Position numbers and translations under genes: made by a program. Source: a virus. Taken from it: DNA of 36,774 bases. Location: positions 1 to 36,774 of IMG/VR virus record IMGVR_UViG_3300025873_000014; one strand, written 5' to 3'. Positions 691-23,300 of the stretch are shown piece by piece. The notes beneath the pieces were generated by a model. It was given only the letters and a program-made list of their open reading frames with translations. It was not told the DNA's origin and did no database searches. Positions within the stretch are counted from its first letter, which is position 1. Each line of letters starts with the position of its first letter.

Positions 691-759
691 GGATACCCGG
701 GCGAGGGATTCACCCTTGCCCATACCGGGGGCCATGCCCCTACTATCAGGAGAACCAAA

Positions 760-1311: not shown

Positions 1312-1329
1312 ATCGAACCAGAGCAGCAT

Positions 1330-1351
1330 CCCCGGGGCGAAAGCCCCGGGG
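1330..1351 (+). terminator. GC-rich GAAA-loop hairpin, possible attenuator
   Basis: CCCCGGGGC (1330-1338) pairs perfectly with GCCCCGGGG (1343-1351) around a GAAA tetraloop, a very stable 9-bp GNRA hairpin. The following bases (GTTGTTGGCTT) are not a true T-tract, so it is more likely an mRNA-stabilising or partially terminating structure than a full intrinsic terminator. Confidence 0.5.
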
Positions 1352-1368
1352 GTTGTTGGCTTGGACCT

Positions 1369-1389
1369 AAAAAACATCGTTGCTTTTTA
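1369..1389 (+). repeat. 21-nt palindromic intergenic element, copy 2 (divergent)
   Basis: The most divergent copy: A6-CATCGTTGC-T5-A. It keeps the A-tract/T-tract arms and the CG centre but differs from the consensus at three core positions. The next start is 34 nt downstream (1424). Confidence 0.65.
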
Positions 1390-1423
1390 GATCTGAACCA
1401 GCAACCACCACAGGAGAACGAGC

Positions 1424-1531
1424 ATGGACCTAACAGGATTTGACCTGACCACAGCGTTGCGCTGCATCATCGGAATCGCCGGGATGCTCTCGCTGTTCTT
1501 CGTAGAGGACGAGAAGGGGATGCTCCAATGA
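1424..1531 (+). CDS. Small single-span membrane peptide, 35 aa
   Basis: A 35-residue peptide. After a short polar N-terminus (MDLTGFDLTT), residues about 11-27 are hydrophobic (CIIGIAGMLSLFFV), followed by an acidic tail (EDEKG). This is the pattern of a single membrane helix. The ATG follows CACAGGAGAACGAGC, an exact copy of the operon's ribosome-binding leader, and the stop overlaps the next start as ATGA (1528-1531), so coupled translation is likely. Function unknown. Small inner-membrane phage peptides of this kind often act on host envelope proteins or block superinfection, but nothing here shows that directly. Confidence 0.65.
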   Translation: MDLTGFDLTTALRCIIGIAGMLSLFFVEDEKGMLQ

Positions 1532-1779
1532 AACGCGGCCCCGACCTGGGAACGATGGGCATCCCGCCCCGCGACCGCCTGGAGATAAGGCGGGAGTGGG
1601 TCGTGTCTGAAATCGAGAAGCTCCGGGGAGAGCTTGACAAGCTGGAGGGTGAGCGGGGGTGGATCGATCTCAATCTTGTCTGGCACTCGCGGAAAGAAGA
1701 TGAGGCCCGGGGCTTCACTAAATTCCAGAGGGCGTGTGAGGCATTCATAGCGAAGCCAAAAAACAACGATGTTTTTTAA
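1528..1779 (+). CDS. Hypothetical coiled-coil protein, 83 aa
   Basis: Not recognised. Residues about 17-45 (RLEIRREWVVSEIEKLRGEL onward) are strongly helical with heptad-like Leu/Ile spacing, consistent with a short coiled coil. The gene is coupled to the membrane peptide upstream by an ATGA overlap. Its last codons, ending in NNDVF and the TAA, are written by copy 3 of the palindromic element, so the element contributes the C-terminus. Confidence 0.6.
   Translation: MKRGPDLGTMGIPPRDRLEIRREWVVSEIEKLRGELDKLEGERGWIDLNLVWHSRKEDEARGFTKFQRACEAFIAKPKNNDVF
1758..1778 (+). repeat. 21-nt palindromic intergenic element, copy 3
   Basis: A6-CAACGATGTT-T4-A, closest to the consensus. It encodes the last residues and part of the TAA stop of the upstream gene and ends 17 nt before the next ATG (1796). 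Confidence 0.85.
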
Positions 1780-1795
1780 CAACAGGAGAACTAAA

Positions 1796-2116
1796 ATGGA
1801 CGAAGGGCAGACCTGTGCCACCTACGTATTCGAGGATCATGATCATATCTATCTGGAAAAGATCAGCCCGCAACACGCCCGGTCGCTGGTCAAGAAGGGA
1901 CCCCACTTCCAGGATATGACCTACCTGCAGCGAGGTGGGGAGAGGGACGTAATTATCAACGGTGTTAATTACGGTGAGCAATTTCTCAATAACAAGTACG
2001 CGGTGAGGGTTGCCGACTACGCAGCAAAACTTGAGAACCCTGAGTATGGGGAGGAGCTATGGGTGTACCGGTCGGATGATAATTATATCCTGACCGCACC
2101 CCGGAAGCGGGGATAG
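1796..2116 (+). CDS. Hypothetical protein, 106 aa
   Basis: Not recognised. The protein is acidic to neutral with a mixed alpha/beta pattern and no membrane segment or Cys cluster. The ATG at 1796 is preceded by ACAGGAGAACTAAA, the operon's standard leader; an in-frame ATG at 1769 lies inside the palindromic element and is rejected. It is followed by copy 4 of the element. Confidence 0.65.
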   Translation: MDEGQTCATYVFEDHDHIYLEKISPQHARSLVKKGPHFQDMTYLQRGGERDVIINGVNYGEQFLNNKYAVRVADYAAKLENPEYGEELWVYRSDDNYILTAPRKRG

Positions 2117-2124
2117 TCCTCGCT

Positions 2125-2145
2125 AAAAAACAACGGTGTTTTTTA
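2125..2145 (+). repeat. 21-nt palindromic intergenic element, copy 4
   Basis: A6-CAACGGTGTT-T4-A, identical to copy 3 except for the variable central base. It ends 12 nt before the next start and abuts the ACAGGAGAAC leader directly. Confidence 0.85.
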
Positions 2146-2157
2146 CAGGAGAACCAG

Positions 2158-2355
2158 ATGGACATCATCATCAAGAAAATGGAATCAATCCCGCCGGACT
2201 CAAACCCTTTCGATCATGACTCTTTCCATATGGGTAACACCATAGGCAAGGATCTACTCATGATGTATGCGACCCATAAAGACGAGGAACTCAAGTACTT
2301 CATACTCGTTGACCAGAAGACGGGCGAGCGAGTCAGGATCAACATCAGTAAGTAA
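2158..2355 (+). CDS. Hypothetical protein, 65 aa
   Basis: Not recognised. The short protein ends in a beta-rich stretch (YFILVDQKTGERVRINISK). The ATG follows TTACAGGAGAACCAG, a leader match of 12 bases to the motif complementary to 10934-10945. The next gene begins 22 nt downstream with the same leader. Confidence 0.6.
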   Translation: MDIIIKKMESIPPDSNPFDHDSFHMGNTIGKDLLMMYATHKDEELKYFILVDQKTGERVRINISK

Positions 2356-2377
2356 ACATCAAAACAGGAGAACTAAA

Positions 2378-2479
2378 ATGGACGAAGAACAGATCGAGGA
2401 GTACTACCAGGATATAAGCAGGGAGGCCGACAGCGGTCAGGATCTCATGATGGCACTCAAGCTGGAGGTCGAGCAATGA
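2378..2479 (+). CDS. Acidic peptide, 33 aa
   Basis: A 33-residue, very acidic and probably helical peptide (MDEEQIEEYYQDISREADSG at its start). Its start is well supported by AACAGGAGAACTAAAATG, the same leader seen at 1796. The stop overlaps the next start as ATGA (2476-2479). Acidic micro-proteins in phage early regions are often inhibitors of DNA-binding host proteins, which is an inference from class only. Confidence 0.6.
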   Translation: MDEEQIEEYYQDISREADSGQDLMMALKLEVEQ

Positions 2480-2628
2480 ATGAGCCCACGTTCAAGGAAC
2501 TCATGAACTGCAACACCGGTAGCGACGATAGACGCTGGGTCAAGGACGAGGCCGAGTACGATGACCGCACCACTGCAAGCCTGGGTGAGATCGCCCGGAT
2601 AGTCTTCACCGAGGATAAGGAGGAGTAG
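2476..2628 (+). CDS. Acidic small protein, 50 aa
   Basis: A 50-residue acidic protein, not recognised (MNEPTFKELMNC at the start, FTEDKEE at the end). It is coupled to the acidic peptide upstream through the 4-nt ATGA overlap. The end of the gene (AAGGAGGAG) supplies the ribosome-binding site of the next gene at 2632, a second coupling. The two acidic neighbours may act together, but there is no direct evidence. Confidence 0.6.
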   Translation: MNEPTFKELMNCNTGSDDRRWVKDEAEYDDRTTASLGEIARIVFTEDKEE

Positions 2629-2631
2629 ACT

Positions 2632-3096
2632 ATGACCGATAAACACACCAAGATAGATGAACTGATTAAGGCTCAGAAGGTACGGCAAGGCAGGGTCGCG
2701 GAACTGTATGAAGATCTGGCACAATCCCTTGCAATAGAGAGACTATTCCCCGATGCCTTTGAGCATGGCGCGTGCAAGCAGTCGTGGAATGACCTTGATA
2801 TTCCAGAGGGTGGCATGAAGTGGCCGGACGGATTGAGAACTGTCTCGTTGAAGGTGACCCGTGGCGATGAGTCCGTCAGGACAATGCTCTTCGAGGATCT
2901 CCCCGAATGGTTCATCAACGAACTGATAGTACGGAGAGGGATCACTGGCATCGAGCATATACCGGGTAGATCGAGAGCAAAACGTCTGACAGAAAAAGGC
3001 AGAGAACACCCAAGGCTGGACAGTAAACTGTCCAGAGTAGCCATGAAGAATAAGCTGAAGCGTAGGTTGAGACGCAACGCATCGAGATCTAAATAA
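2632..3096 (+). CDS. Hypothetical protein with basic tail, 154 aa
   Basis: Not recognised. The N-terminal half is helical and Lys/Asp/Glu-rich. The centre carries a WPDGLRTVSLKV strand pattern, and the C-terminal 35 residues are extremely basic (KNKLKRRLRRNASRSK), typical of RNA or DNA contact. AAGGAGGAG just upstream fixes the ATG. The TAA stop at 3094-3096 lies inside copy 5 of the palindromic element. Confidence 0.65.
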   Translation: MTDKHTKIDELIKAQKVRQGRVAELYEDLAQSLAIERLFPDAFEHGACKQSWNDLDIPEGGMKWPDGLRTVSLKVTRGDESVRTMLFEDLPEWFINELIVRRGITGIEHIPGRSRAKRLTEKGREHPRLDSKLSRVAMKNKLKRRLRRNASRSK

Positions 3097-3111
3097 CAAC
3101 GATGTTTCTTA
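3091..3111 (+). repeat. 21-nt palindromic intergenic element, copy 5
   Basis: AAATAACAACGATGTTTCTT plus final A. It contains the stop codon of the upstream gene. A purine-rich site (AGGGGGA) follows immediately, with GTG at 3123 placed like the starts after other copies. Confidence 0.8.
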
Positions 3112-3122
3112 GGGGGACCAAC

Positions 3123-3323
3123 GTGGTGGGTGATTCAACGCATGAAGTAGTTGAAGTATTTTGGGAGGAGATCTGCGCCATGGATTATGAAGTAGTTGCA
3201 GTATTTTTGGGGGAGGACCAGGCCCTGGAATATATCGAGAGCAAGACAAGGGATGAGCAGGACTCTCTATATATCACCAAGGATATGTTTAGCGGAAGCT
3301 ATGAAGTTGTGAAAATAAAATAG
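3123..3323 (+). CDS. Hypothetical small protein with internal tandem duplication, 66 aa
   Basis: Not recognised. The likely GTG start at 3123 lies 11 nt after the palindromic element, as in other copies, behind AGGGGGA. An internal ATG at 3180 has an excellent site (GGGAGGAG, 9-nt spacing) and would give a 47-residue version starting MDYEVVAVFLGED. The two regions are tandem duplicates with a 45-nt period: HEVVEVFWEE is followed by YEVVAVFLGE in the same frame. The 47-residue form resembles the small one-domain proteins common in phage early regions; the duplication adds an extra copy of the first strand and helix. Confidence 0.5.
   Translation: MVGDSTHEVVEVFWEEICAMDYEVVAVFLGEDQALEYIESKTRDEQDSLYITKDMFSGSYEVVKIK
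3142..3207 (+). repeat. 45-nt-period tandem duplication
   Basis: ATGAAGTAGTTGAAGTATTT at 3142 recurs at 3187 with a single mismatch over 21 bases. The period is a multiple of three, so the reading frame is kept. Confidence 0.75.
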
Positions 3324-3333
3324 GAGGAGTGAA

Positions 3334-3606
3334 ATGAGAGATCCAGGGAGAGAGACAAGGACATACAGAATTGATTGGGAGGCAACGATAGAGGGCGCAG
3401 CGTATATCGAAGCATCCTCGGTGACAGAAGCGGTTCGATGGTTCAATAAAGAACCAGGGATTTACACCAACCCGTTGGTCAGTCACAAGGTCGTAAGCAA
3501 GCCCGCTGCGATGGACGGGTATGAGTACAACGGCTACAGGATCAAGGTAGTGGGAGAGGAATACGACGAAAACGGCAACAGGATTAAATGCAAGGAGGAG
3601 GAGTGA
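3334..3606 (+). CDS. Hypothetical protein, 90 aa
   Basis: Not recognised by name. The pattern RTYRIDWEATIEGAAYIEAS, then a helix (VTEAVRWF) and a second strand pair (GYRIKVVGEEYDENGN), suggests a small alpha/beta domain often seen in phage proteins of about 90 residues. TAGGAGGAG 9 nt upstream sets the ATG. It is the last gene before promoter P2. Confidence 0.6.
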   Translation: MRDPGRETRTYRIDWEATIEGAAYIEASSVTEAVRWFNKEPGIYTNPLVSHKVVSKPAAMDGYEYNGYRIKVVGEEYDENGNRIKCKEEE

Positions 3607-3633
3607 ACCCGGCAGCGTAGGGAAATACACACA

Positions 3634-3661
3634 TTGACAACCATTATAGATGTGCTATAAT
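3634..3661 (+). promoter_or_regulatory. Promoter P2, near-consensus sigma70 with extended -10
   Basis: TTGACA (3634-3639), a 16-bp spacer, then TATAAT (3656-3661) preceded by TGC, so both boxes are perfect and the -10 is extended. An inverted repeat, ATTATAG (3643-3649) and CTATAAT (3655-3661), covers the spacer and the -10. This is the best host-type promoter found in the window. It drives the three-gene ATPase/metallopeptidase cassette, with palindromic element copy 6 in its leader. Confidence 0.85.
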
Positions 3662-3681
3662 GATATAGTAAGTTGAGTCGC

Positions 3682-3702
3682 AATAAACAACGGTGTTATT
3701 TA
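3682..3702 (+). repeat. 21-nt palindromic intergenic element, copy 6
   Basis: AATAAACAACGGTGTTATTT plus final A, located between promoter P2 and the next start (3718). Because P2 lies upstream, this copy is transcribed in the 5' leader, about 14 nt after the likely start site. It is therefore not itself the promoter. Confidence 0.85.
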
Positions 3703-3717
3703 CAACAGGAGAACACA

Positions 3718-4635
3718 ATGGCAGGCAAGAATGAAGCAATCAAGTTTCCCAGTCCCGCTGAGTTGGGAACAACCATCTCTTTGCACGCGAGATTTGGTGG
3801 AGGAAGGAAGCAGCACAGGACCGCAACGGCTGAGTTGATTGAGTCCAAGTCAGTCAAAAATAAAAAGCGAGCAGGTGTATGGGTTGAACTCTTCGACTCA
3901 CCCCATCTGAACAACGCCAAGAATATGAAGCAGACTCTGGCGAACTGGATCAAGGCCAACACTATGCCCTGGGGTGATGACGGGCGAAGGTTCGTACCCA
4001 ACGCAATCAAGATTGAACTCGACAGTCATATCAATAAGGCAATCACGGAGATCAAGGGGGAAATGGAGAAGCACTTCGGCTCCTACATTGACCAGAAGAA
4101 ACTCTGGGAATCAGAGGGTGGCGGCCTTGCACAATACGGAATGGAGTTTCCCTCCGAGGAGGTGGGTAGAAGTAAGTTTGAAATAGAAGCAATCCCAGGA
4201 GTTATCACGGAAGCTGCCGACGTTAACGTGAGTGGATTGACAGAAGAGCAGAAGGAACGGTTCATTAAGGACGTACACGCTGCTGAAAATAGCAGACTCC
4301 AGGGTACGGTTCGGGATGTGACTAGCAGGGTGGAGGATGTTCTCGTAAGGATGGTTGATAGAATGGGAGCATATGGCAAGGACGAGAACGGCAAAACCGT
4401 AGGCAAGTTTCACGATACAATCGTGGGTAACGTGCGGGAGATCGCCGGACTACTTGGACACTTCAACATCACCAACGATCCCGAGATCGAGAACGTGCGA
4501 AGACGATTGGTCAACGAGATCTGCGTTGTTACCCCTGATGAACTAAGGGAGGACCCCGAACTCAGGAAGAATATCAAGAGCAAGGCAAGCGACATCCTCT
4601 CCAGGGTTGGACAGTTTGGTTCCAAGCGAGATTAA
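3718..4635 (+). CDS. DUF3150-like protein, partner of MoxR/VWA genes
   Basis: A 305-residue protein resembling the DUF3150 group, which in phages and some bacteria sits next to a MoxR-type ATPase and a VWA protein. That assignment rests on the general pattern (N-terminal GTTISLHARFGGGRKQ, central MPWGDDGRRFVP, helical middle around YIDQKKLWE, then a long helical C-terminus) and on the neighbourhood, not on a search. The start at ATG 3718 follows ACAGGAGAACACA; upstream in-frame codons run through the palindromic element and are rejected. It is the first gene behind P2, and the next gene starts 25 nt after its stop with the same leader. Its likely role is as a substrate, adaptor or third subunit of the ATPase system. 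Confidence 0.65.
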   Translation: MAGKNEAIKFPSPAELGTTISLHARFGGGRKQHRTATAELIESKSVKNKKRAGVWVELFDSPHLNNAKNMKQTLANWIKANTMPWGDDGRRFVPNAIKIELDSHINKAITEIKGEMEKHFGSYIDQKKLWESEGGGLAQYGMEFPSEEVGRSKFEIEAIPGVITEAADVNVSGLTEEQKERFIKDVHAAENSRLQGTVRDVTSRVEDVLVRMVDRMGAYGKDENGKTVGKFHDTIVGNVREIAGLLGHFNITNDPEIENVRRRLVNEICVVTPDELREDPELRKNIKSKASDILSRVGQFGSKRD

Positions 4636-4660
4636 TATTTCTAAAACAGGAGAACAAGAA

Positions 4661-5812
4661 ATGGAATGGAACAACACGGACGAATTCACGACAGAAGAAG
4701 TCATGGACATGATCGACGCGACAGTCGAAGCGCAACTGGCAGGCGGGGATGCGACTATCCTCTATATGGAATCTCCTCCCGGCATCGGCAAGACCAAGAT
4801 GATCTGTGCATATGCAGAGTGGAAGGAGAAGCACGGATCCAAGGCGCTCGGCATCGCCCATCCCAAGGTGCTCGTGAGGATAAATATCCTCTCGCAAAGT
4901 GACAGCGTTGACTTCGGGGCACCGGCACCGGACTTCAAGGAGGGGAAGCTGAACTTCCTGGTACCTGATGATATCCTTGGACAAGCCAAGGGGGATGAGC
5001 AGTACGATATTGTGATGGTGTTCTGGGACGAGCTTCCCAACGCCAATCCCGCAACCCTTTCAGCTTGGCAGTCCGTTGCCGAGGAGGGTGAGATTCGCGG
5101 GAGGAAGAAGGCGGACAACTGCGTGTATATCGCAGCAGGCAACCGGCCCGAGGATAAGTGCGGAGCGAGGGCTCTTCCTAGATCCATCCGCGAGGGTCGA
5201 ATCATTACTGTCCCGATGGGTGTATCTATGCCCAGGCTCATCGCCTACGCTGAGGAGAAATGCTGGGATGCTCGGCTGGTTGCCATGCTTGGCTGGGCAG
5301 AACTACAGAACAAGGAGATGCTCAACTCGTTCGATCCCAACACCAAGAGCAAGGTGCAGCCATCTCCCCGTGGTGTACAGAAGCTCAACTCTCTACTGAA
5401 CCAGGGACTCGACGAAAAAATACTCGATGCTCTCGCGCCTGGCTGCGTGGGTGACAAGATGTGGACAGAGATCAGAGCCTTCTTCATTATGGCAGAAGAT
5501 CTCCCCACACTCACTGAGATCTTCGATGATCCCGATGGTGCAAGGATGCCCGGGGAAGACAACCCCGAAGTGGGACCCAACGGGCAGTACGCTGTGATCT
5601 CCAATGTCGCAGCGTTCCTCCAGCACTGCAAGAATGGGGGCAATCATGTAGAGTCGAAGACATTCAATGCAATCGCATCCTACTTCGAGCGGATGGATGC
5701 GGAGATGCTTCTCTTCGGACTCAAGCTGTGCCAGAACGCACATGATGAATTCTCCAATTGTTCCAAGTGGGGAGAACTTCAGGTCACGCACAGTGAAATC
5801 ACCCTCGGTTAA
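4661..5812 (+). CDS. MoxR-like AAA+ ATPase
   Basis: A 383-residue AAA+ ATPase. Visible motifs are a Walker A (SPPGIGKTK, residues 38-46), a Walker B (IVMVFWDE, D123-E124), a sensor-1 Asn in AAGNRPEDK (N161) and candidate arginine fingers at R174/R177 in LPRSIREGR. Members of the MoxR group act as ring chaperones that remodel proteins or insert metals, usually with a VWA-domain partner. Here the next gene encodes such a partner, and the gene before is DUF3150-like. The ATG at 4661 follows AACAGGAGAACAAGA. The TAA stop overlaps copy 7 of the palindromic element. Confidence 0.85.
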   Translation: MEWNNTDEFTTEEVMDMIDATVEAQLAGGDATILYMESPPGIGKTKMICAYAEWKEKHGSKALGIAHPKVLVRINILSQSDSVDFGAPAPDFKEGKLNFLVPDDILGQAKGDEQYDIVMVFWDELPNANPATLSAWQSVAEEGEIRGRKKADNCVYIAAGNRPEDKCGARALPRSIREGRIITVPMGVSMPRLIAYAEEKCWDARLVAMLGWAELQNKEMLNSFDPNTKSKVQPSPRGVQKLNSLLNQGLDEKILDALAPGCVGDKMWTEIRAFFIMAEDLPTLTEIFDDPDGARMPGEDNPEVGPNGQYAVISNVAAFLQHCKNGGNHVESKTFNAIASYFERMDAEMLLFGLKLCQNAHDEFSNCSKWGELQVTHSEITLG

Positions 5813-5830
5813 AAACAACACTGTTATTAA
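5810..5830 (+). repeat. 21-nt palindromic intergenic element, copy 7
   Basis: TAAAAACAACACTGTTATTA plus final A; the central G is replaced by A. It contains the stop codon of the ATPase gene and ends 11 nt before the next ATG, with GGGAGAAC between them. It is the last copy seen. Confidence 0.8.
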
Positions 5831-5841
5831 GGGAGAACTCA

Positions 5842-7152
5842 ATGATCCGAGACATACTTTTTACACAGATAGATGGTGCAGAAAAGAGGCAGTGCATCAA
5901 GGCTGTACAGAGGTGCAGGTGGAGGCTGCTGAACGACTATCCATATTACGGATCCATTGCGATGGGATTCGATGTGGTGGTATGCAACAACTGGAATGGT
6001 CGCGGAGTAGAGACGGCAGCAACGGATGGGAGGCATCTCTTTGTCAACCCACAATACTTCCTCGACCTGACGTTCGACGAGCAACTCTCACTCGTTGTTC
6101 ACGAAGTATCACACAAGGCCCTGGCACATCACCTTAGACGGGGCGGTCGGAATCATGATCTCTGGAATGCAGCAACCGATCATGCCGTGAACCACCAGAT
6201 TCTGGATGCCGGAATGAAGATCGGGGAGGGCTGGTATTGTGATTACAAATACAAGGGGTGGAGTTCGGAAAGGATATACGGAAGGGTGGAGGAGGAGTTC
6301 AAGCCGCCCCCGCCCCCGCCCCCGCCGCCCGGGGGAAAGCCTCCCCCGCCTGGGGCTGGGGGAAACGAGCCGCCGCCGCCCGGGGGAGGTGGGGAGCCGC
6401 CCGAGAAACAGCCCGGCGAGGTGTGGGATGCCACCGACAAGGACGGCAAGGAGTTGACCGAGGAAGGGAAGCATAAAGCAATGCGCGACCTGACTGTGGA
6501 TGTACACATGGCCAACGAGGCAAGCAAGACTGCTGGCAATGACGGCAGCGCTCTCCACAAAAGATCGGTGAACGAAATTCTCGCACCGTCTGCCGATTGG
6601 GCAAACCTCCTGTCTGAATTCTGGTCTGGAACCGGCACTCCCATTAACGAAACGTGGAGCAGGCCAAACAGGAGATACCTGCCCGCAGGTATCTGGGCAC
6701 CCTCCATTCATGAGGGAGGAATTGATTGGGGCGTAATAGGCATGGATGTCTCCGGCTCTATTATGCAGAGGGAGTGTGACGCATTCATAGCAATGATCAA
6801 CCAACTCAGGACGGAGGTCCCGGCAAGGAGGATCACCATCGTACCATTCAACTCTGTGATACAGAAGGATGATATAGTGGAAATATATGATGGTGACGAT
6901 GTGCCGAATAGATTCAACGTCGGCGGAGGAACCAACTTTAAGTCGATTACCAACTGGGTGAAGAGGCAGACAGAAGATCCTGACTTCCTCATTATCTTCA
7001 CTGATCTTTGTTGCTCTAGCTACGGACCGAAGCCAAGCTGCCCCACACTATGGGCAAGCTCGGACCCGGTATATGACAGCGACTCGTATTCAAACAGGCC
7101 TCCGTTCGGAGATGTCATAGAGGTGGAGGTTCCCGGGCCGCGCTGGTACTAA
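5842..7152 (+). CDS. DUF2201-type metallopeptidase/VWA protein
   Basis: A 436-residue two-domain protein. The N-terminal domain carries a zinc-peptidase motif HEVSH (H87, E88, H91) followed by HDLWNAATDHAVNH, where Asp/His can supply the third ligand. A Pro/Gly-rich linker (about residues 154-193) with runs of up to nine Pro follows. The C-terminal half is a VWA-like domain with a metal-ion-dependent adhesion motif DVSGS (302-306) and FTD near residue 390. This is the arrangement known as the DUF2201 putative metallopeptidase with VWA-like domain, paired with MoxR ATPases. The inferred role is a protease or metal-binding adaptor worked by the ATPase. GGGAGAACTCA sets the start. Confidence 0.85.
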   Translation: MIRDILFTQIDGAEKRQCIKAVQRCRWRLLNDYPYYGSIAMGFDVVVCNNWNGRGVETAATDGRHLFVNPQYFLDLTFDEQLSLVVHEVSHKALAHHLRRGGRNHDLWNAATDHAVNHQILDAGMKIGEGWYCDYKYKGWSSERIYGRVEEEFKPPPPPPPPPGGKPPPPGAGGNEPPPPGGGGEPPEKQPGEVWDATDKDGKELTEEGKHKAMRDLTVDVHMANEASKTAGNDGSALHKRSVNEILAPSADWANLLSEFWSGTGTPINETWSRPNRRYLPAGIWAPSIHEGGIDWGVIGMDVSGSIMQRECDAFIAMINQLRTEVPARRITIVPFNSVIQKDDIVEIYDGDDVPNRFNVGGGTNFKSITNWVKRQTEDPDFLIIFTDLCCSSYGPKPSCPTLWASSDPVYDSDSYSNRPPFGDVIEVEVPGPRWY

Positions 7153-7174
7153 TAAAATATTTCAGGAGAACAAA

Positions 7175-7795
7175 ATGAAAAGAGTAATGTGCGAAAAGCA
7201 CACCGCACAAAAATCATGGGTAATTGATAAGGGTCACAGCAGGGGGGGTCGCTTCAGGTGTACCCTGTGTGTCAAGGAATACAATACAGGCTACAGGCTC
7301 AAGCACGCTGATAAGCTCCGCAGTTCAGCCAGGAAGCGCTCCTCAAAATACCGGGAAGAGAACCGAGAAAGATGCAACGCATACAACAAGAAATATTGCA
7401 AGGGGTACCGTATCCGGAATCGTGGGGTCATCAAGGAGAAGCGGGATGCCCGGCGACTTTCCTACCCCGAGAAGAGGAGGAAGGAGAGGCAACTCTACAG
7501 GGCGAGGAAGGCAAGCTCGATATGTACGGTATGCAATGGAAACGAATACGAAAAGATTGTGACCGGTACCTGTTATGTATGTCTCTCGGAACCGGCTGCG
7601 CAGACGGATCACATCACCCCGCTCGCAAAGCAGGGGAGGCATTGCAACCTTAACTTTGGGGGCATCTGTCCCGGGTGTAACCAATCGAAGGGATCCAGGG
7701 TGTGGCCCGGACATAAGGGCTGGGATTCATTCGTCATGGAGAGGAGGGGTGAGATAGATGGACTTTATGTTCATGGAAGTGGAGTGGGAGTCTAG
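7175..7795 (+). CDS. HNH endonuclease
   Basis: A 206-residue protein with a C-terminal HNH nuclease domain: CYVC, then DHITPLAKQGRHCNLNFGG and CPGCNQSKGSR, giving two zinc-binding CxxC pairs and the metal-binding DH and N residues. An N-terminal zinc knuckle (CEKH, CTLC) is joined by a very basic helical stretch (residues 45-110), as in DNA-binding HNH proteins of phages. It may be a free-standing homing endonuclease or a nuclease acting on host or phage DNA; the sequence does not decide. TTCAGGAGAACAAA precedes the ATG. Its 3' end overlaps the next gene by 38 nt. Confidence 0.85.
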   Translation: MKRVMCEKHTAQKSWVIDKGHSRGGRFRCTLCVKEYNTGYRLKHADKLRSSARKRSSKYREENRERCNAYNKKYCKGYRIRNRGVIKEKRDARRLSYPEKRRKERQLYRARKASSICTVCNGNEYEKIVTGTCYVCLSEPAAQTDHITPLAKQGRHCNLNFGGICPGCNQSKGSRVWPGHKGWDSFVMERRGEIDGLYVHGSGVGV

Positions 7796-8294
7796 TTTAA
7801 CGGAGGAGCTGCTTGACTGGGCGTTTAATCAACCCGAAGAAATGTGGATCCAATACTACGCTTTCAAGGCACTCCCGCTAAAGGGTCCGGGCGGGGAATT
7901 CAAATTCTGGAGTGATGGCTTCCTGCAATGGCTGTACAAGAGGCATCCATTCGTAGCTGGTGTCTTGAAGATAAACGGCAACTCATACTATGACTGGCAT
8001 GTTGACGCCGATAGGGGTGTGAGTGTGAACATGCTACTCACACCAGAGAACCACAGCCATTGTCTGTTCTCACCGGAGTATCAAGCAGAGGACGAGGACA
8101 ATGCGAGGAGGGGACCCTGTGTTGAACTTGTGTATAAACCAAACACATTCTATCTATTGAATACCCAAGTACACCATTGTGTGGTAAACCTTGACAAGCC
8201 AAGGTACATGATGTCGGTGGAATTCGCAGAAGATAAAAAGGTGATGTCCTTCGGGGATCTAGCTAAGGAAATCAGGGAGGAATGGACGGTATGA
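7758..8294 (+). CDS. 2-oxoglutarate/Fe(II) oxygenase-like protein
   Basis: A 178-residue protein with the iron-binding triad of the 2OG-Fe(II) dioxygenase superfamily: HVD (H81, D83) after YYDW, a distal His at H139/H140 in NTQVHHCV, and Arg (R149) nine residues later, suited to bind 2-oxoglutarate. Length and order fit small prolyl-hydroxylase or Asp/Asn-hydroxylase-like phage members. The substrate is unknown: a host protein, or a modified amino acid or nucleotide. The start overlaps the HNH gene and is supported by GGAGGGGTGAG just upstream. The stop overlaps the lipoprotein start as ATGA. Confidence 0.75.
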   Translation: MDFMFMEVEWESSLTEELLDWAFNQPEEMWIQYYAFKALPLKGPGGEFKFWSDGFLQWLYKRHPFVAGVLKINGNSYYDWHVDADRGVSVNMLLTPENHSHCLFSPEYQAEDEDNARRGPCVELVYKPNTFYLLNTQVHHCVVNLDKPRYMMSVEFAEDKKVMSFGDLAKEIREEWTV

Positions 8295-8524
8295 AAAATA
8301 TCATAATTATTTTCCTAACAGCAACACTATCATACGCTTGCCAAACGGGTCCAGTCCCAGACCCGGAGAGTGACTCCCCACTAATACTGGGTGACACGGT
8401 GGATACACCCTGGGGATGTGTCTTGTGGAGAAGGGACAACAGTCAGAAATGTTGCTACCTGGAAAGAATCGATGAGACAATCGATGACTCTTCGGGATGG
8501 GAACTAGACGATTGGGATTGCTGA
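8291..8524 (+). CDS. Small lipoprotein
   Basis: A 77-residue precursor with a typical signal: Lys at position 2, a hydrophobic core (IIIIFLTATL) and a lipobox-like SYAC with the Cys at about residue 17. The mature part is acidic and has five further Cys, so disulfides and a periplasmic or outer-membrane location are likely. The start at ATG 8291 is preferred to ATG 8282, because AGGGAGG lies about 10 nt upstream of the former but only 2 nt from the latter, and because 8291 forms an ATGA overlap with the previous gene. Phage lipoproteins of this size, such as T5 Llp, can block superinfection by masking a receptor; that role is inference here. Confidence 0.75.
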   Translation: MKNIIIIFLTATLSYACQTGPVPDPESDSPLILGDTVDTPWGCVLWRRDNSQKCCYLERIDETIDDSSGWELDDWDC

Positions 8525-8913
8525 TGAATTATATAGAAGATGCTGGTAAAATTTTCCGCAGGGTAAAGAATGGCTTTACATACAAGAGCGACAAGGAACT
8601 GTACGACAAGCCAGAGGATTGGAGATTCCCAGAAAACTATGACCGCATCTATGGTGATTGTGATGACTTCGCAATCGCATGTAGATCATTGCTGAAGAAG
8701 AAAGGTCACGACTGTCGATTGATATTTTGCATGACTGAGGACAACTCCGGACACTTGATATGTTCAGTAGGTAAACTTGCCCTGGACAACAGACTCAAGT
8801 GGCCCATGAAATTGTCCGACCTAGTTCGAGTTCACGGATACAAAATAATATCAGTTAGCGGACTCAATCGCGGTGACCCATGGAAATCCGCATCACTGAA
8901 GGGAGGAAACTAA
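8524..8913 (+). CDS. Transglutaminase-like cysteine peptidase
   Basis: A 129-residue protein matching the bacterial transglutaminase-like cysteine peptidase pattern: catalytic Cys in GDCDDFAIACR (about residue 46), His in NSGHLICSV (about residue 79) and Asp in LALDNR (about residue 88). The start at ATG 8524 overlaps the preceding TGA as TGATG, so translation is coupled to the lipoprotein gene. Phage members of this family are mostly unstudied. Cleavage of a host or phage protein, or of peptidoglycan peptides, is possible; there is no signal peptide, so a cytoplasmic or virion role is more likely. Confidence 0.8.
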   Translation: MNYIEDAGKIFRRVKNGFTYKSDKELYDKPEDWRFPENYDRIYGDCDDFAIACRSLLKKKGHDCRLIFCMTEDNSGHLICSVGKLALDNRLKWPMKLSDLVRVHGYKIISVSGLNRGDPWKSASLKGGN

Positions 8914-8914
8914 A

Positions 8915-9193
8915 ATGAACAGCAAGGTTGAATGCCCAAGCAATTCCTGGGACCGACACTACGATTCGCAAGAGAGCGCCGAGGCAGAAGTAATCCATGA
9001 ATGGATCATGGGTGAGATCGAGAAGGTTCGTCCCAGGATTGGGAACAGAACTTCCGTACACAGGGACCACTTCAAGCCCGCTGATGGTTGGCCGGAAGAC
9101 CCCGCTGAGATCGCGGATGAGATCACCAACCTTGTCGGTAACCATGGAGCATTGATCGAGGTGATCATGCTGCTGGCCAAGGCGAATAAATAA
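8915..9193 (+). CDS. Hypothetical protein, 92 aa
   Basis: Not recognised. It is an acidic, helical protein (residues about 20-45 and 60-90) with a Trp-rich N-terminus. The last 30 residues (EIADEITNLVGNHGALIEVI) look like an amphipathic helix bundle, resembling small dUTPase/MazG-like phage helices only loosely, so no function is given. GGGAGGAAAC precedes the ATG. Two strong hairpins follow the stop at once. Confidence 0.6.
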   Translation: MNSKVECPSNSWDRHYDSQESAEAEVIHEWIMGEIEKVRPRIGNRTSVHRDHFKPADGWPEDPAEIADEITNLVGNHGALIEVIMLLAKANK

Positions 9194-9253
9194 TCCGGGA
9201 CTGTCCCGGAAGTCCCCTCTCCCGAAACCCGGGGGGGTCAAGGGGGAGGGGAC
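9194..9253 (+). terminator. Tandem hairpins, possible transcript end or attenuator
   Basis: Hairpin 1: TCCGGGA (9194-9200) and TCCCGGA (9204-9210), a perfect 7-bp stem with a CTG loop. Hairpin 2: bases 9212-9223 pair with 9242-9253 over 12 positions with one T-G wobble. No T-tract follows either one, so full intrinsic termination is uncertain; RNA processing or stabilisation is equally possible. Confidence 0.5.
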
Positions 9254-9269
9254 ACTACAGGAGAATCAA

Positions 9270-9527
9270 ATGAAAACAATCATACATGTGAATCAGCACA
9301 TTATAAAACGGAACAAGAAGAGCGGAACCAACGAACCTGTTCTTACTGTCAAGAATTACAAGTCGAATAGGTACGCGCACACGGTAGACATCTCCGGCCC
9401 ATCCCGGATTGTGTACTCACCGGACAAACCACTGTCGTGTGGTGCGCATTGCTGGATAGAGACTGAATCAAAAGTACTGACATGGAAAAGGGTCGAACCC
9501 AATGAATTCACAAGTAATATACTGTAA
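9270..9527 (+). CDS. Hypothetical protein, 85 aa
   Basis: Not recognised. The protein is basic and beta-rich, with an N-terminal strand (MKTIIHVNQHIIKRNKKSG) and two Cys/His-containing strands (CGAHCWI). The ATG follows ACAGGAGAATCAA, the last recognisable copy of the operon's leader. It overlaps the next gene by 26 nt in a different frame. Confidence 0.6.
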   Translation: MKTIIHVNQHIIKRNKKSGTNEPVLTVKNYKSNRYAHTVDISGPSRIVYSPDKPLSCGAHCWIETESKVLTWKRVEPNEFTSNIL

Positions 9528-9876
9528 GCATTGCAGCCTGATAGTTCCCAAGCCAGACAAGGCACCACACAATAAAATATATTGCTCAAATAAATGTTAC
9601 CGTGGCGCTAAGAAGATCCGCAACCGAGGCGAGCGCACATACAAGCAAAACATGGAGAAGGTGAGGGCAGTGTGGACGAAGAGACATCCCAAGTCAGACA
9701 TACAGCCAGCATGGCCACACCGTTTCGACGAGGATTTGGTGTGTGAATTCTGCGGTATCTACTGGAGCGAAAACCAAACAGGATTGTCTCCGAAATGTTC
9801 AAACCCACAGGGGTATATGGATATATCGATTGACAGGAATGGAAAACCAAGGGTGATAAAGGTGGAAAGTAATTGA
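9502..9876 (+). CDS. Zinc-ribbon protein, 124 aa
   Basis: Two separate zinc-binding pairs at the N-terminus (YCKHC and YCSNKC, residues 7-32) form a treble-clef-like finger, followed by a basic helix. A second CxxC (CEFCG, about residue 82) and a Cys in PKCSN form another candidate site. Proteins with this layout bind nucleic acid or ribonucleoproteins, but no specific family is recognised. The start lies inside the upstream gene and has only a weak site, so expression is probably coupled. Confidence 0.6.
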   Translation: MNSQVIYCKHCSLIVPKPDKAPHNKIYCSNKCYRGAKKIRNRGERTYKQNMEKVRAVWTKRHPKSDIQPAWPHRFDEDLVCEFCGIYWSENQTGLSPKCSNPQGYMDISIDRNGKPRVIKVESN

Positions 9877-9900
9877 CCAACCCAAGCAATGGGTTATCAT
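9873..9900 (+). promoter_or_regulatory. Promoter P3 with inverted-repeat spacer
   Basis: TTGACC (9873-9878) and TATCAT (9895-9900), each one mismatch from consensus, lie 16 bp apart. The spacer is filled by an inverted repeat, AACCCA (9879-9884) and TGGGTT (9890-9895). It begins in the stop region of the zinc-ribbon gene and points at the gene starting at 9923. Confidence 0.5.
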
Positions 9901-9922
9901 TCATTGGTAAGGAGGCTCAAGG

Positions 9923-10165
9923 ATGGCCAATGCCTGGAGATTCAGAACTGAATTTGGTGGTGACGAGGTGTGGGTGTATTCACTCTCCGAACCAGCAGCA
10001 AGAAGGAACGAAATGCCGGGGCCAGCAGCGCTGGCAATACCAGTAGACATGCCTGAGAATATAGAAGAGGCCTTTGGGTACACCAACGGATCAACCCATA
10101 CACCGGAGGCTGTGTTGGCAGATGCTGACTCGGGAGAAATTGTAAAGATCTTTCCCAATGAGTAG
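9923..10165 (+). CDS. Hypothetical protein, 80 aa
   Basis: Not recognised. It starts with a beta-rich segment (WRFRTEFGGDEVWVYSLSEP), has a Pro/Ala-rich middle (MPGPAALAIPVDMP) and an acidic C-terminus. AAGGAGGCTCAAGG precedes the ATG. The 3' end overlaps the next gene by 8 nt. It is the first gene behind promoter P3, so it and the following regulator-like gene may be expressed independently of the rest of the operon. Confidence 0.6.
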   Translation: MANAWRFRTEFGGDEVWVYSLSEPAARRNEMPGPAALAIPVDMPENIEEAFGYTNGSTHTPEAVLADADSGEIVKIFPNE

Positions 10166-10463
10166 CCCCCCTTGTCCGCTATGTGGTGGAAGGGGGAGTG
10201 TAGTATCAAACTATGGTGATTGCATAGAGTTTGAAAAATGTCAATGCCAAACAAGAACGTACACAGAGGAGAAGAAAATGGAAAGTAATACCCCGAAAAT
10301 CCGCAAGGTTCAAAATAATTTGGTACTATCCCTGCCCGGGGGCGATGAAGGAAAGCGCATAAAGGATGCACTAAAAGACATGGCCACTGACAACCACAGG
10401 AGTCTCAGCAATCAGGTCAGCCTGATCCTGATACGCTTCCTGAGGGAAGAGGGAAAGATGTAG
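10158..10463 (+). CDS. Zinc-finger/ribbon-helix-helix regulator candidate
   Basis: A 101-residue protein with two parts. Residues 6-35 hold a DnaJ-like zinc motif (CPLCGGRG then CQCQ). Residues about 50-101 resemble an Arc-type ribbon-helix-helix DNA-binding domain: a short strand (NNLVLSLPGG), helix 1 (GKRIKDALKDMATDN) and helix 2 (SLSNQVSLILIRFLREEG). An internal ATG at 10278 has its own strong site (AGAGGAGAAG) and would give the bare 61-residue RHH domain. This looks like either a fusion or a gene with two products. Arc-family dimers bind short palindromes with TAGA/TCTA half-sites, and the P1 palindrome has such ends, so self-regulation of the left operon is a testable inference. Confidence 0.6.
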   Translation: MSSPPCPLCGGRGSVVSNYGDCIEFEKCQCQTRTYTEEKKMESNTPKIRKVQNNLVLSLPGGDEGKRIKDALKDMATDNHRSLSNQVSLILIRFLREEGKM

Positions 10464-10464
10464 G

Positions 10465-10650
10465 ATGATTGATGAAGAAATGCGTGCCCTAGTAAGGGCA
10501 TGTCATGGCTCCGGCGAATCGTGGGAGGACATAGAGGGCGCAGTGTATACAGGTATATGGCGGAGCGTGGGAATGGATTCATCCATGACTGAATGGTCCA
10601 TCAAGAAGGCTAAGGAAATTGTCTCATTGGAAAAATCAACCTATGAATAA
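10465..10650 (+). CDS. Hypothetical protein, 61 aa
   Basis: Not recognised. It is a helical protein: EEMRALVRACHGSGESWEDI, then AVYTGIWRSVGMDSSMTEW and a C-terminal helix. The spacing resembles a small helix-turn-helix fold, but no recognition helix can be picked with confidence. It starts 1 nt after the regulator-like gene and overlaps the next gene by 8 nt, so all three are probably translated together. Confidence 0.55.
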   Translation: MIDEEMRALVRACHGSGESWEDIEGAVYTGIWRSVGMDSSMTEWSIKKAKEIVSLEKSTYE

Positions 10651-10876
10651 TGGCCTCGACGCACACTCCATGGATCTATTCACAACAGATCTTCATGCAG
10701 CCATAACCGAGGATCGACCAACTTGGCTAAAGATTTTCAGGAATGGTAGCTGTGAGGCCGGATCGCTTAATCGGTCCGCAATGTTCATGACGGTAAGTCA
10801 CATGCAATCTATGATCAAAGTAGATCTAGATGAGTACGATACAATGCACATGTCTTTAGACATGTTTAGCCCTTGA
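10643..10876 (+). CDS. Hypothetical protein, 78 aa, last gene of the left operon
   Basis: Not recognised. The protein is acidic and Met-rich (nine Met in 78 residues). It has a possible helix at residues 8-24, a strand pair (TWLKIFRNG and GSLNRSAMFMT) and an acidic C-terminus. The ATG at 10643 overlaps the previous gene; a start at 10619 would lie deep in that gene and is rejected. There is no strong ribosome site, so coupling is likely. The terminator at 10981-11011 closes the operon about 105 nt later. Confidence 0.5.
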   Translation: MNNGLDAHSMDLFTTDLHAAITEDRPTWLKIFRNGSCEAGSLNRSAMFMTVSHMQSMIKVDLDEYDTMHMSLDMFSP

Positions 10877-10932
10877 CCGAACACCCGGTGTACGCAATAC
10901 TTGCATTGAACGGATGAGGTTGTTACGCCCAT
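10798..10932 (-). CDS. Possible 44-aa minus-strand peptide
   Basis: On the minus strand, CACAGGAGAACCA is followed directly by ATG (start 10932) and 44 codons, beginning MGVTTSSVQCKYCV. The ribosome site and spacing are excellent and identical to the plus-strand operon's leader. However, most of the frame lies antisense to the gene at 10643-10876 and has no recognisable domain. It could be a real tail gene of the primase transcript, which runs into this region. The leader may instead be meaningful as an antisense sequence (see findings). Confidence 0.3.
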   Translation of the reverse strand: MGVTTSSVQCKYCVHRVFGQGLNMSKDMCIVSYSSRSTLIIDCM

Positions 10933-10933
10933 T

Positions 10934-10945
10934 GGTTCTCCTGTG
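10934..10945 (+). promoter_or_regulatory. Exact complement of the operon's ribosome-binding leader
   Basis: GGTTCTCCTGTG on the plus strand is the reverse complement of CACAGGAGAACC. It pairs over 12 nt with the leader at 2158, over 12 nt (including downstream A-A) with that at 760, and over 10-11 nt with those at 1424, 1796, 2378, 3718 and 4661. It lies between the last gene and the intrinsic terminator. Confidence 0.5.
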
Positions 10946-10949
10946 CAAC

Positions 10950-10976
10950 GGGGGGAGGGGATGTCCCCCTCCCCCC
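10950..10976. other. Very GC-rich hairpin between convergent operons
   Basis: A G6-A-G4-A arm faces a T-C5-T-C6 arm around a short TG loop with a one-base bulge. It is stable on both strands but lacks a T-tract on either, and it lies directly before the plus-strand terminator and just beyond the minus-strand stop at 10979. It may protect 3' ends of either transcript. Confidence 0.45.
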
Positions 10977-10978
10977 AC

Positions 10979-11551
10979 CTAAAGGCCCCTTAACGGGGCC
11001 TTTTTCTTTTTGTAGTAGCCAACCTGACGACGAACAATTTTCCTCGGGTCTCTCCTGCTGGCTATCCCATAAAAGTCTACCAGTGCGGAGAGCGCTGGAA
11101 GAAGTGAGTTCGCCAGCCCCATCAAGACACCCTTCGATTTCGGGTATGTGTATATGTCGGAGAAAATATCAACCAGTCGGGTCGCGGCCTCGTCGCCGCA
11201 CTCGGCAACAACTCTCCGGTACGGGGCAGAGAACGCCATCCTCCTGTCGGCCATCGCATCCCCGACAGCATACGCGGGTGGTCTTGAAACTGTATCCGGC
11301 GAGATGCCGGACAGGGACATGCCGGATGATATGGTGGACCCCAAAAATAAATGAACAGCCTCATGGTGACCCTGATCAATCATCTCCATTAGGAACATGG
11401 CATCGAAGATTGTTTGATCTACAACCCTGTTCCTCTTGACCAGACCCCCGATGTCTACGTCTTCGGACACAAAGCCACGCTTCGAGGACTGCGCCTTGTC
11501 TGGCAGATCATCGGAAGTCAACGTCAAAACCCTCCCATCCAAGGGCAACAT
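10979..11551 (-). CDS. Hypothetical protein, 190 aa, downstream of primase-helicase
   Basis: Not recognised. The central part is helical (IFDAMFLMEMIDQGHHEAVHL, AFSAPYRRVVAECGDEAATRL, LANSLLPALSALVDFYGI) and the C-terminus is very basic (GYYKKKKAP). The start is uncertain: ATG 11551, GTG 11566 and TTG 11521 all overlap the primase gene, and TTG 11521 has the best ribosome site (GGGAGGG, 8-nt spacing). The last 11 codons are written by the opposing terminator, so the tail KKKK is the antisense of its T-tract. It is the last well-supported gene of the minus-strand replication block. Confidence 0.6.
   Translation of the reverse strand: MLPLDGRVLTLTSDDLPDKAQSSKRGFVSEDVDIGGLVKRNRVVDQTIFDAMFLMEMIDQGHHEAVHLFLGSTISSGMSLSGISPDTVSRPPAYAVGDAMADRRMAFSAPYRRVVAECGDEAATRLVDIFSDIYTYPKSKGVLMGLANSLLPALSALVDFYGIASRRDPRKIVRRQVGYYKKKKAPLRGL
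10981..11011 (+). terminator. Intrinsic terminator of the left operon
   Basis: AAAGGCCCC (10981-10989) pairs with GGGGCCTTT (10995-11003) around TTAAC, followed by T5-C-T5. This is a strong rho-independent terminator for plus-strand transcription. On the minus strand only three T follow the stem, so it acts in one direction. It lies inside the final codons of the opposing gene. Confidence 0.85.
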
Positions 11552-19928: not shown

Positions 19929-20378
19929 CTAGTTTTTGAGATCCAGACTCCAGGAATGATCCCTGAATTCGAGAACCTCTTTTCTGTTATTTCCCAGATA
20001 AGAAACATGGACCCACCCAGATGATGGGATGTCCCTATCGTGATGCTCTAGTATCAGTTGATCGAAGTCTAGATTATCCCTAATCCAGACCGCAAGATCA
20101 TAGTTCGATACACCATAAATTTCTAAATCGGCAGCCTGCCCCAGTATGTGCTGGCTTTTGTCGTGAGAACCTATCTCGTTGTTTAACACCAACGACCGGT
20201 AGCCGGACGCGGGGCTGAACGGCCTGTCGAAATGAAACCTAACTGGTTCAAGTATATTTTTACATAAAGACTTTAGGTTAGAAACCTCAATCCAGCTAGG
20301 ATCATTGGGTATATTCTTCCTGGTAGCAACCTGACTCCTCGTCAACTCAGCCAACGAAAAATTTTCAGATAACTTCAC
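19929..20378 (-). CDS. M15-family endolysin (peptidase)
   Basis: A 149-residue peptidoglycan hydrolase of the M15 (D-Ala-D-Ala carboxypeptidase/L-Ala-D-Glu endopeptidase) group: FSPASGYRS (55-62), SQHILGQAADLEI with zinc ligands H77 and D84, a Glu at about 111 and WVHVSY with H124. There is no signal peptide, so it needs a holin to reach the wall. The start is a GTG at 20378, overlapping the stop of the giant gene as GTGA. It opens the lysis cassette. Confidence 0.9.
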   Translation of the reverse strand: MKLSENFSLAELTRSQVATRKNIPNDPSWIEVSNLKSLCKNILEPVRFHFDRPFSPASGYRSLVLNNEIGSHDKSQHILGQAADLEIYGVSNYDLAVWIRDNLDFDQLILEHHDRDIPSSGWVHVSYLGNNRKEVLEFRDHSWSLDLKN

Positions 20379-23300
20379 CGTCCGGCGATCATCCTCTTTA
20401 GCTCGGGAACCATACTCAGAGCACGACTCTCCATCTCATCGTACATAAACTCCCTCTCTTTCGTAAGCCTGTTTGTTCGGAAATCCTTAGACCTAGCATT
20501 CCTTATCTTGGAGAGGTTCCTCTCTATTGCGTTCACAGCACCCCTCACCGAGAGAAGATCGGCATTGTCACTGATCATCTCAACTGCCCGCTCCGGCTCA
20601 GTCCCCTGAACCTGCTTGATGGCCAGCATCATCCCGTCGATAGCGTTCCTCATCTCGTAGAAGTCAGTCTTCAGACCACCGCCGTACTGATCTCTAACGA
20701 ATCTCCGAACGATGGGGAGATCGGTAGCCCTGGCGCCGGGCCTTGTAGGCATACCAGGAATCATCCATCGCAACCCGTTGTCCAGGGCCTGCAACGTGTA
20801 GATACCAACTCCACCAAAGATAGTTCTCAGTGTGTTATCGATCTTCCTCGGACTCAGCCCGGTAGCACTGCCGAGGAGCCTGGCTTGCGCAGTAGTGTTG
20901 TCAGAATATTGTTCAGCACCAGGCATATTCTCCTGCCACTGCGGGACAATGGGATTACCAGTAAACATATTCTTGTTAGCGAACCATTCCCATACCGGCC
21001 TGATGGCCTGGGGCGTTGGATTAAAACTAAGAGTACTCGTTATGCCATGCCAAAGAGACTTACCAACGTCAGCCCTCGTTCCGCCGTATCTTCCGTCCGT
21101 CATCTCGCCGATGATGAAGTTTGTTATCGCCTCCGGAACCAACTTATACATGACCCCGGCCTCAAACGGAATCGGGACCCCGAACCAGTAATCCATGCCG
21201 GGGATGGGCAGCAACCAATAGTCATCCTTCACATGATCTGGCAGTTTTTCCCTATCGGTGTCAAGGATTGCCATCGCTGCGTACATGGCGGAGACCGATG
21301 ATACGGTAGTTGCCCTGAGGAGCATCGATGTCTTTACATCTTGCGGGTTCAACCTCCCCGTAATACTGTCCCCGCGCATAGACCTTGCCGCCGTTGCCAG
21401 ACCCTGCAATCTGGAATTGAGGAACGGTACAGTCGCCGTTATGAGTTGCATGTATGGATTACTACCATGCCGACTAAAGTTCAGGACCTCTACAGCCTGA
21501 TACGCAGCCTCTCCCATAGCCTTTCTTTCGGCGATATTTATACCGTTGTCATCCAGGCGGTCGAACCCAGCCTCTCGGTACTTATTTAGTGCATGAATGT
21601 AAGCAGACTCATAGACATTCTCCCTCGTCGCAGATTCAGAGCGCGAACTCAACTCACCAGTCGCATCCCAAAATTTCCTGAGAATATTCCCAACTCCGGC
21701 ACCCTTGCCGATATCCATGGCGAATCGTCTGGTTAGTCGCTCGGGGGTAAGCTCTGCGTGTTCCACTCCGGAAATGGCACCCATCCTCTGCAAGTGGGTG
21801 TATGTCTCATTGGCCTCACCACGGGTCATCTTTGAAACATTGCTCGCCATCGTCTTGGCTGCATCGATGATTGGCTCGGCCTCCCCGCCATTCAGGATAT
21901 ACACATGCAACGAATCCCTAAGCATGTTTGCAATCAAGTAGTCAGGGGACCGCGTGACCAATGATCTAAGCAACCTTGCCGGTATGCCCAGAAATTCAAA
22001 GTATGGATTATGACCCTGGAAACCACCGACTATAGCTTCATGGAATATGGGATCCTTCAGGAGGTAGTGCTTGTTCTCTCCGGCAACACGGATAGTTACC
22101 GTGCTCTGCTTCTCATTGATGCCTAGCCTGCCCAATTCCCCGGATGAAATTTCGGTAGCCTGATCTATCATCAGGGCATCGCGGATAGCCCTCTGCGATG
22201 CAATATTTCTCAACGACCCGGTAATGGCCGCCCTTGCATTTCTGACTATGGACTCAATCGGATCAAGTATCGCCTGATCCTTTCCAAGCCCAGAATACTT
22301 CATGTGCTGACGTTGATTAGCTATACCAGCAGACATGAACATCTCTGCATCGGGGCGACCCAATTCCCTGCTCAGGATACCCTCAATCGTCTCGTTCCTG
22401 ACCCCCTCAAGCTCAACGTAGAACGGTATGTAATCCGAATACCTTCGGTAGACATCGCCCATCTCTTCGCTGATAATACCCGCATCGATCTGGAGTTGAA
22501 TGATCCCGTCGTTCCAGTTCTGTATATTTTGTGCAGCAACAACTATCTCGGGATTATTCTTTGCAGCCTCCATCCCCTCCGCTATCACATCCTTATCGAA
22601 GGGTACCGACCGGCCCTCATGATTGAGGCGGGCACCTCTGAGCGCACGCATATACAGGAACAGTTCAGGAATCAGCCTCTTCGCAGACAGTGCTTCGAGT
22701 ATCGGAAAGAGACCACCCTCTGATCCCTCTTCGTACATACCCTCAACGGTAACCATCTCGCGCTCAACCGTTCTCCCTGTAACTGGATCGAACTCCCTCC
22801 TGGGGGCAGAGTTAACCAGTTTTAACCCCTCGATCATCGGGACTCCGTGCTTGTATGTCATCACCCCATCCCTGAGGGAGGTCGCCAGATACCCAGCCGC
22901 CTTGTCCGACATAAGGGCCATCGCGTGGGCGGATACATCAAACAGATCGTGCATCCCCTCGTACCCAAGCTCCTCGGCCTTGGCCCTAGCAAGTTTTCCG
23001 TATCGCTCGATCCGCTTAAACCGATCAAGCATTGAAGCAATGAGGATATCGCTCCAATCCTTCGTGGGAGAAGCTAGCGATGCGCTGAAGGAATCCCAAA
23101 TTGTCCTGAGGCCGTGGCTGCCAGACTGGGGAAGCCCGACACTTTCAAGTGCTCTCACTTGCTCCGGAGATCTGCCCTCGTATGAATTGGTCGCATACCT
23201 CCTGCGTTCCGAATCTCTGAGCTTAGGAGACAACTCAGGCTTCAGGAATGTTTTAATCGACTCGATACTGGCATCCTTGCCGTGCAGATGCCCAGTAATA

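Follow-up and report, generated by a model that had tools for sequence, protein, structure and literature searches.

A 19-nt block on the plus strand of a 36.8-kb virus record (IMGVR_UViG_3300025873_000014, positions 1-36,774; hereafter the window, the whole stretch of DNA analyzed) is complementary to a ribosome-binding leader that recurs along an operon of small genes, and is identical in a relative whose surrounding noncoding sequence has diverged. Judging from the sequence, we estimate with a probability of about 65% that the site encodes a plus-strand regulatory RNA (about 10908-11012), which has its own promoter and terminator and pairs with many leaders of the operon.

A complement of the repeated leader precedes the operon terminator

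The small-gene cluster occupies the plus strand from about 760 to 10876, the minus-strand genes converge on it, and the anti-leader site sits between both sets (Table 1). Along the plus strand, the promoter-like pair TTGACC-17-AATACT is followed by the block CCCATTGGTTCTCCTGTGC, a GC hairpin and a T-tract terminator, and nothing except the predicted short RNA lies between the promoter and the terminator. The sequence-only reading had picked out this promoter-like pair and a strong terminator, and both were recovered as described. At the other side of the site, the product of the minus-strand 195-aa gene has KKKKAP as its last residues, whose codons coincide with the stem and T tract of the terminator on the plus strand (10979-11011); this overlap is also present in the relative. 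Elsewhere in the window, positions 20375-29368 of the minus strand form one unusually large open frame of 2997 codons.

Table 1 Features of the anti-leader site, its surroundings and the leader targets in the window. Energies are those of the block-leader duplexes.
Feature	Coordinates	Strand	Remarks
Anti-leader block CCCATTGGTTCTCCTGTGC	10928-10946	+	Antisense to the Shine-Dalgarno sequence and start codon of the leader; identity with the relative 100%; duplex energies given with each leader
Putative small-RNA promoter	10873-10901	+	TTGACC (10873-10878), 17 nt, AATACT (10896-10901); 9/12 consensus
Predicted small RNA, about 105 nt	10908-11012	+	Inferred from promoter and terminator; 5' end from the -10 box
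GC-rich hairpin between block and terminator	10950-10976	+	11-bp stem
Intrinsic terminator with T tract	10981-11012	+	Stem 10981-11003; overlaps the 3' end of the minus-strand 195-aa gene
44-codon frame	10798-10932	-	Plain alternative; judged a non-gene
Small protein gene near the site	10278-10463		
Last plus-strand gene of the cluster	10619-10876	+	Stop at 10876 overlapped by the promoter-like pair
195-aa gene	10979-11566	-	No assigned function
Primase/helicase gene	11508-13205	-	PHROG 239
Leader of gene 760, ATCAGGAGAACCAAAATG	745-762	+	-20.7 kcal/mol
Leader of gene 1424, CACAGGAGAACGAGCATG	1409-1426	+	-24.0 kcal/mol
Leader of gene with ATG at 1796, AACAGGAGAACTAAAATG	1781-1798	+	-23.5 kcal/mol
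Leader of gene 2158, TACAGGAGAACCAGATG	2144-2160	+	-27.3 kcal/mol
Leader of gene 2378, AACAGGAGAACTAAAATG	2363-2380	+	-23.5 kcal/mol
Leader of gene 3718, AACAGGAGAACACAATG	3704-3720	+	-25.9 kcal/mol
Leader of gene 4661, AACAGGAGAACAAGAAATG	4645-4663	+	-20.6 kcal/mol
Leader of gene 7175, TTCAGGAGAACAAAATG	7161-7177	+	-17.8 kcal/mol; weakest target
Leader of gene 9270, TACAGGAGAATCAAATG	9256-9272	+	-21.4 kcal/mol

The leader core CAGGAGAA is common to nine plus-strand genes, and the longer leader 10-mer ACAGGAGAAC is found in six plus-strand leaders (1410, 1782, 2145, 2364, 3705 and 4646). At 10934-10945 (+), the sequence GGTTCTCCTGTG reads as CACAGGAGAACC on the minus strand with no mismatch, the sole exact match. 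The antisense 10-mer occurs once in the 36.8 kb, just 5' of the operon terminator, confirming that a complement of the leader is placed there; the chance of finding it in the 104-nt 3' region is ~5e-5 under a first-order Markov model. The earlier claim was that this sequence can pair over 10-12 nt with at least seven leaders; when G-U pairs are allowed, seven leaders form at least 10 contiguous pairs, often running on across the AUG. None of the leaders matches all 12 nt of GGTTCTCCTGTG exactly, and two of the six with the 10-mer match over 11 nt, with one mismatch each (1409 and 2144).

The duplexes between the block and the leaders of the nine genes range from -18 to -27 kcal/mol, where the background is -11.7 +/- 3.6, and those with the relative's own leaders from -20.6 to -24.4. 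When whole molecules were cofolded, the mean gain was -12.4 for the leader genes, compared with -6.8 for the other operon genes and -5.7 for the minus-strand genes, and a scrambled block still yielded -9.1 on the window leaders. In this whole-molecule test, target 7175 was unsupported and target 9270 was not specific. In the relative, the native block outperformed its scrambled version on each of the five leaders.

The leader genes carry other elements nearby. An inverted repeat rich in A and T, AAAAAACAACGNTGTTTTTTA (stem of 8 bp, ACGN in most loops), lies just 5' of the ribosome sites of several operon genes, at 655, 1371, 1760, 2127, about 3685 and 5812 (+), and is kept in the relative (reverse complement of L095: 6089, 6890, 7733 and 9244); it may serve as an operator for a repressor or as a protein-bound RNA hairpin, which would give these genes a second regulatory mark. 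Directly 5' of the ribosome site of gene 9270, a GC-rich hairpin (GTCCCCTCTCCC ... GGGGGAGGGGAC) was found at 9204-9272 (+), and a similar C-rich/G-rich arrangement precedes the counterpart of this gene in the relative.

The plus-strand elements are conserved in a diverged relative

A good Shine-Dalgarno sequence with an ATG on the minus strand has the same look as a complement of the leader on the plus strand, so that strand evidence has to decide between the two. We compared the site with the only relative type that spans it, represented by two near-identical IMG/VR contigs (3300013110_000395 and IMGVR_UViG_3300013115_000607); the conservation described here rests on this one effectively independent relative, whose block is identical to that of the window. 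Two further relatives, L004 and L099, whose sequences break off within the 195-aa gene, were left out of the site comparison. The relative shares about 67-70% DNA identity with the window in the main alignable blocks and has the same gene order around the site. One gene, at 1841-2145, stands far above the rest, with 91% protein identity and exact DNA runs of up to 107 nt, which suggests a recent exchange.

Conservation of the complement had been named beforehand as a check on the RNA, and the block is preserved letter for letter over its 19 nt, in the same place, followed by the GC hairpin and the U-tailed terminator. Identity at 19 of 19 positions amid diverged noncoding flanks is expected with a probability of about 6e-5 at 60% identity. 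The islands of the alignment are the -35 box (CTTGAC), the -10 box (ATA.T), the block, the lower GC stem and the terminator, all of which are plus-strand elements, whereas the spacer that separates the -35 island from the -10 box has 5/18 matches in a by-eye count, the chance level. The pattern thus favors the plus strand as the functional one. It also bears on the idea that recombination left the block behind as an inverted leader copy without function. The leader is indeed a repeated cassette in these genomes, whose copies may move, but a leftover would hardly be expected to retain every position of the block between diverged flanks, together with a promoter and a terminator, and we consider this origin highly improbable.

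The sequence-only reading had offered a plain alternative, namely that the same bases, on the minus strand, serve as the ribosome site of a 44-codon gene, and had set conservation of that frame with synonymous changes in the complement as one observation that would speak against an RNA. Such a short gene, or a leader peptide, would have its ribosome-binding site and start here and follow the primase operon. The 44-codon frame does exist, CACAGGAGAACCAATG is a well-spaced ribosome site, the conserved block extends to the minus-strand ATG, and other ribosome sites in the genome are also preceded by hairpins (9204-9256). In the relative, however, the frame meets a stop after 14 codons (MGNLPSWHTYTMEH) and resembles that of the window only at Met-Gly; the frame has no Pfam match; in the window, it overlaps the end of the plus-strand gene 10619-10876 in antisense; and the conserved promoter and terminator point in the opposite direction. 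A minus-strand gene is therefore quite unlikely. Taken together, both sequence tests favor the small RNA that the sequence-only reading had proposed.

A short structured RNA is predicted from a conserved promoter

The promoter had been called weak, and it matches 9 of 12 consensus positions in the window; its position and spacing are kept in the relative, where the sequence is TTGACA-17-CATAGT (10/12), and the promoter-to-complement distance is 60-61 nt in both. In the plus direction, a score of at least 10/12 is attained by only two sites in 16.4 kb of the relative, the putative small-RNA promoter and site 9163. The latter is apparently the counterpart of the strong 3634 promoter of the window, as both directly precede the same gene.

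The predicted 105-nt RNA has a folding energy of -57 kcal/mol (z -5.6), and its counterpart in the relative has a z of -6.5; the GC hairpin and the terminator account for much of this stability. In the predicted fold of the window RNA, UCCUGUGC is unpaired between the hairpins, whereas part of the block is paired in that of the relative, which counts against the RNA reading. The lower stem of the GC hairpin is kept in the relative and the upper stem is altered. The 5' hairpins of the two RNAs are built from different pairs and therefore lend no covariation support. The two relative contigs differ once beside the block (GGC/GGT), preserving a U-A or U-G pair of the predicted 5' hairpin, a change that proves little for this hairpin. 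Among the features that mark a trans-acting small RNA, the site has its own conserved promoter, as judged by sequence, an intrinsic terminator with a U tract, and complementarity to translation initiation regions.

The nearest rival to a separate RNA is a complement acting only in cis, in which the 3' untranslated region of the operon pairs with the leaders of its own mRNA and the promoter-like sequence is irrelevant. The block is located in the operon 3' region, before the operon terminator; the leaders and the 3' motif are on the same strand in the same cluster; and icaR provides a precedent for such 3'-UTR pairing (PMC3868564). On the other hand, the promoter is kept in position and spacing inside otherwise diverged sequence, and the leaders are 1.6 to 10 kb upstream of the block, behind internal promoters such as 3634. 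We regard an exclusively cis-acting complement as unlikely; pairing in cis could work alongside an RNA acting in trans.

Searches outside the two contigs

At the DNA level, 6 kb around the site found no match in annotated phages, and the 195-aa protein had none in annotated phages or prokaryote genomes, where the ATPase and primase found only distant relatives. The exact 17-mer ACAGGAGAACCAATGGG was present at 11 loci in IMG/VR, with the same context in the two relative contigs only. Protein alignments with the 195-aa, 10278-10463 and ATPase products returned the same relatives again, plus contigs ending inside the 195-aa gene. Among 80 primase-related viral loci scanned, none outside this clade combined a repeated leader with a complement of it ahead of a terminator. 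Several candidates were discarded: a pattern of anti-leader and terminator had 24 matches in prokaryote genomes, several of them tRNA-like and the rest without sign of kinship; a match on contig L005 lies in coding-looking sequence and was judged to be due to chance; and the relative has a second antisense 10-mer, located within a coding frame of 112 aa.

Discussion

From the sequence, the complementarity and the conservation, we infer the following course of events. The small RNA would be transcribed from the promoter at the operon end, and could additionally arise as the 3' end of operon read-through transcripts. Its 19-nt block would then pair in the cell with the repeated leader (A)ACAGGAGAAC..AUGG, over the Shine-Dalgarno sequence and the start codon, and this pairing would block 30S binding and lower translation. 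The duplex would probably also be exposed to RNase III. In this way, a single RNA would reduce the output of about seven to nine phage genes at once, and the simplest purpose would be a timed shut-off or a balancing of the operon.

No Rfam family reached its threshold for the predicted RNA. The candidates Atu_C8 (RF02502; 31.3 vs 50 bits gathering threshold), BjrC68 (RF02353; 31.4 vs 39 bits) and suhB/mmgR (RF00519; 20.9 vs 41 bits) were rejected; the weak Atu_C8 and BjrC68 matches rest on the hairpin and terminator, and none of the three families was listed for the relative. The Cuckoo / alpha-r14 RNAs (e.g. NfeR1) resemble the predicted RNA only in having an anti-Shine-Dalgarno motif in the unpaired part of a short structured RNA (PMC10746234). 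They are host-encoded and carry CCUCCUCCC in three hairpins, whereas the window RNA would be phage-encoded, has a single CCCAUUGGUUCUCCUGUGC beside hairpins and no family match; an unpaired CCUCCUCCC repeat is absent from 10908-11012, which places it outside that family.

A closer likeness in pairing is found in the 3'-UTR motif of icaR in S. aureus, which pairs with the Shine-Dalgarno region and thereby both prevents initiation and creates a substrate for RNase III (PMC3868564). Both are short motifs before a transcript 3' end that match a Shine-Dalgarno sequence; the icaR motif is bacterial and has 7 nt and one cis target, whereas the phage site offers 10 to 17 pairs with many targets, and its conserved promoter suggests a separate RNA. 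The c4 RNA of P1/P7 is likewise a phage RNA complementary to the ribosome-binding site of a phage mRNA and dependent on its own fold, and phage antisense RNAs such as c4 have been described with a single target mRNA (PMC12197685). While c4 controls the ant mRNA, the RNA of the window could control the about seven to nine genes that share the leader.

The T4 protein RegA is a known case of coordinated shut-off of translation initiation on many phage genes, and according to a T4 review no small trans-acting regulatory RNA from T4 had been functionally characterized (PMC3014915). If the reading as a trans-acting RNA is true, the leader/anti-leader pair would show how sharing one ribosome-binding leader can bring many genes under one RNA, and the signature to seek in other phages would be a repeated leader whose complement precedes a terminator. 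We hold it to be an even call whether the RNA is the equivalent of RegA, in which the shared leader marks the genes, one antisense RNA silences them all and the match is kept over evolution. The two would have in common that one phage factor acts on the translation initiation regions of many phage mRNAs; RegA is a protein acting on about 30 of them (PMC3014915), whereas the factor of the window would be an antisense RNA.
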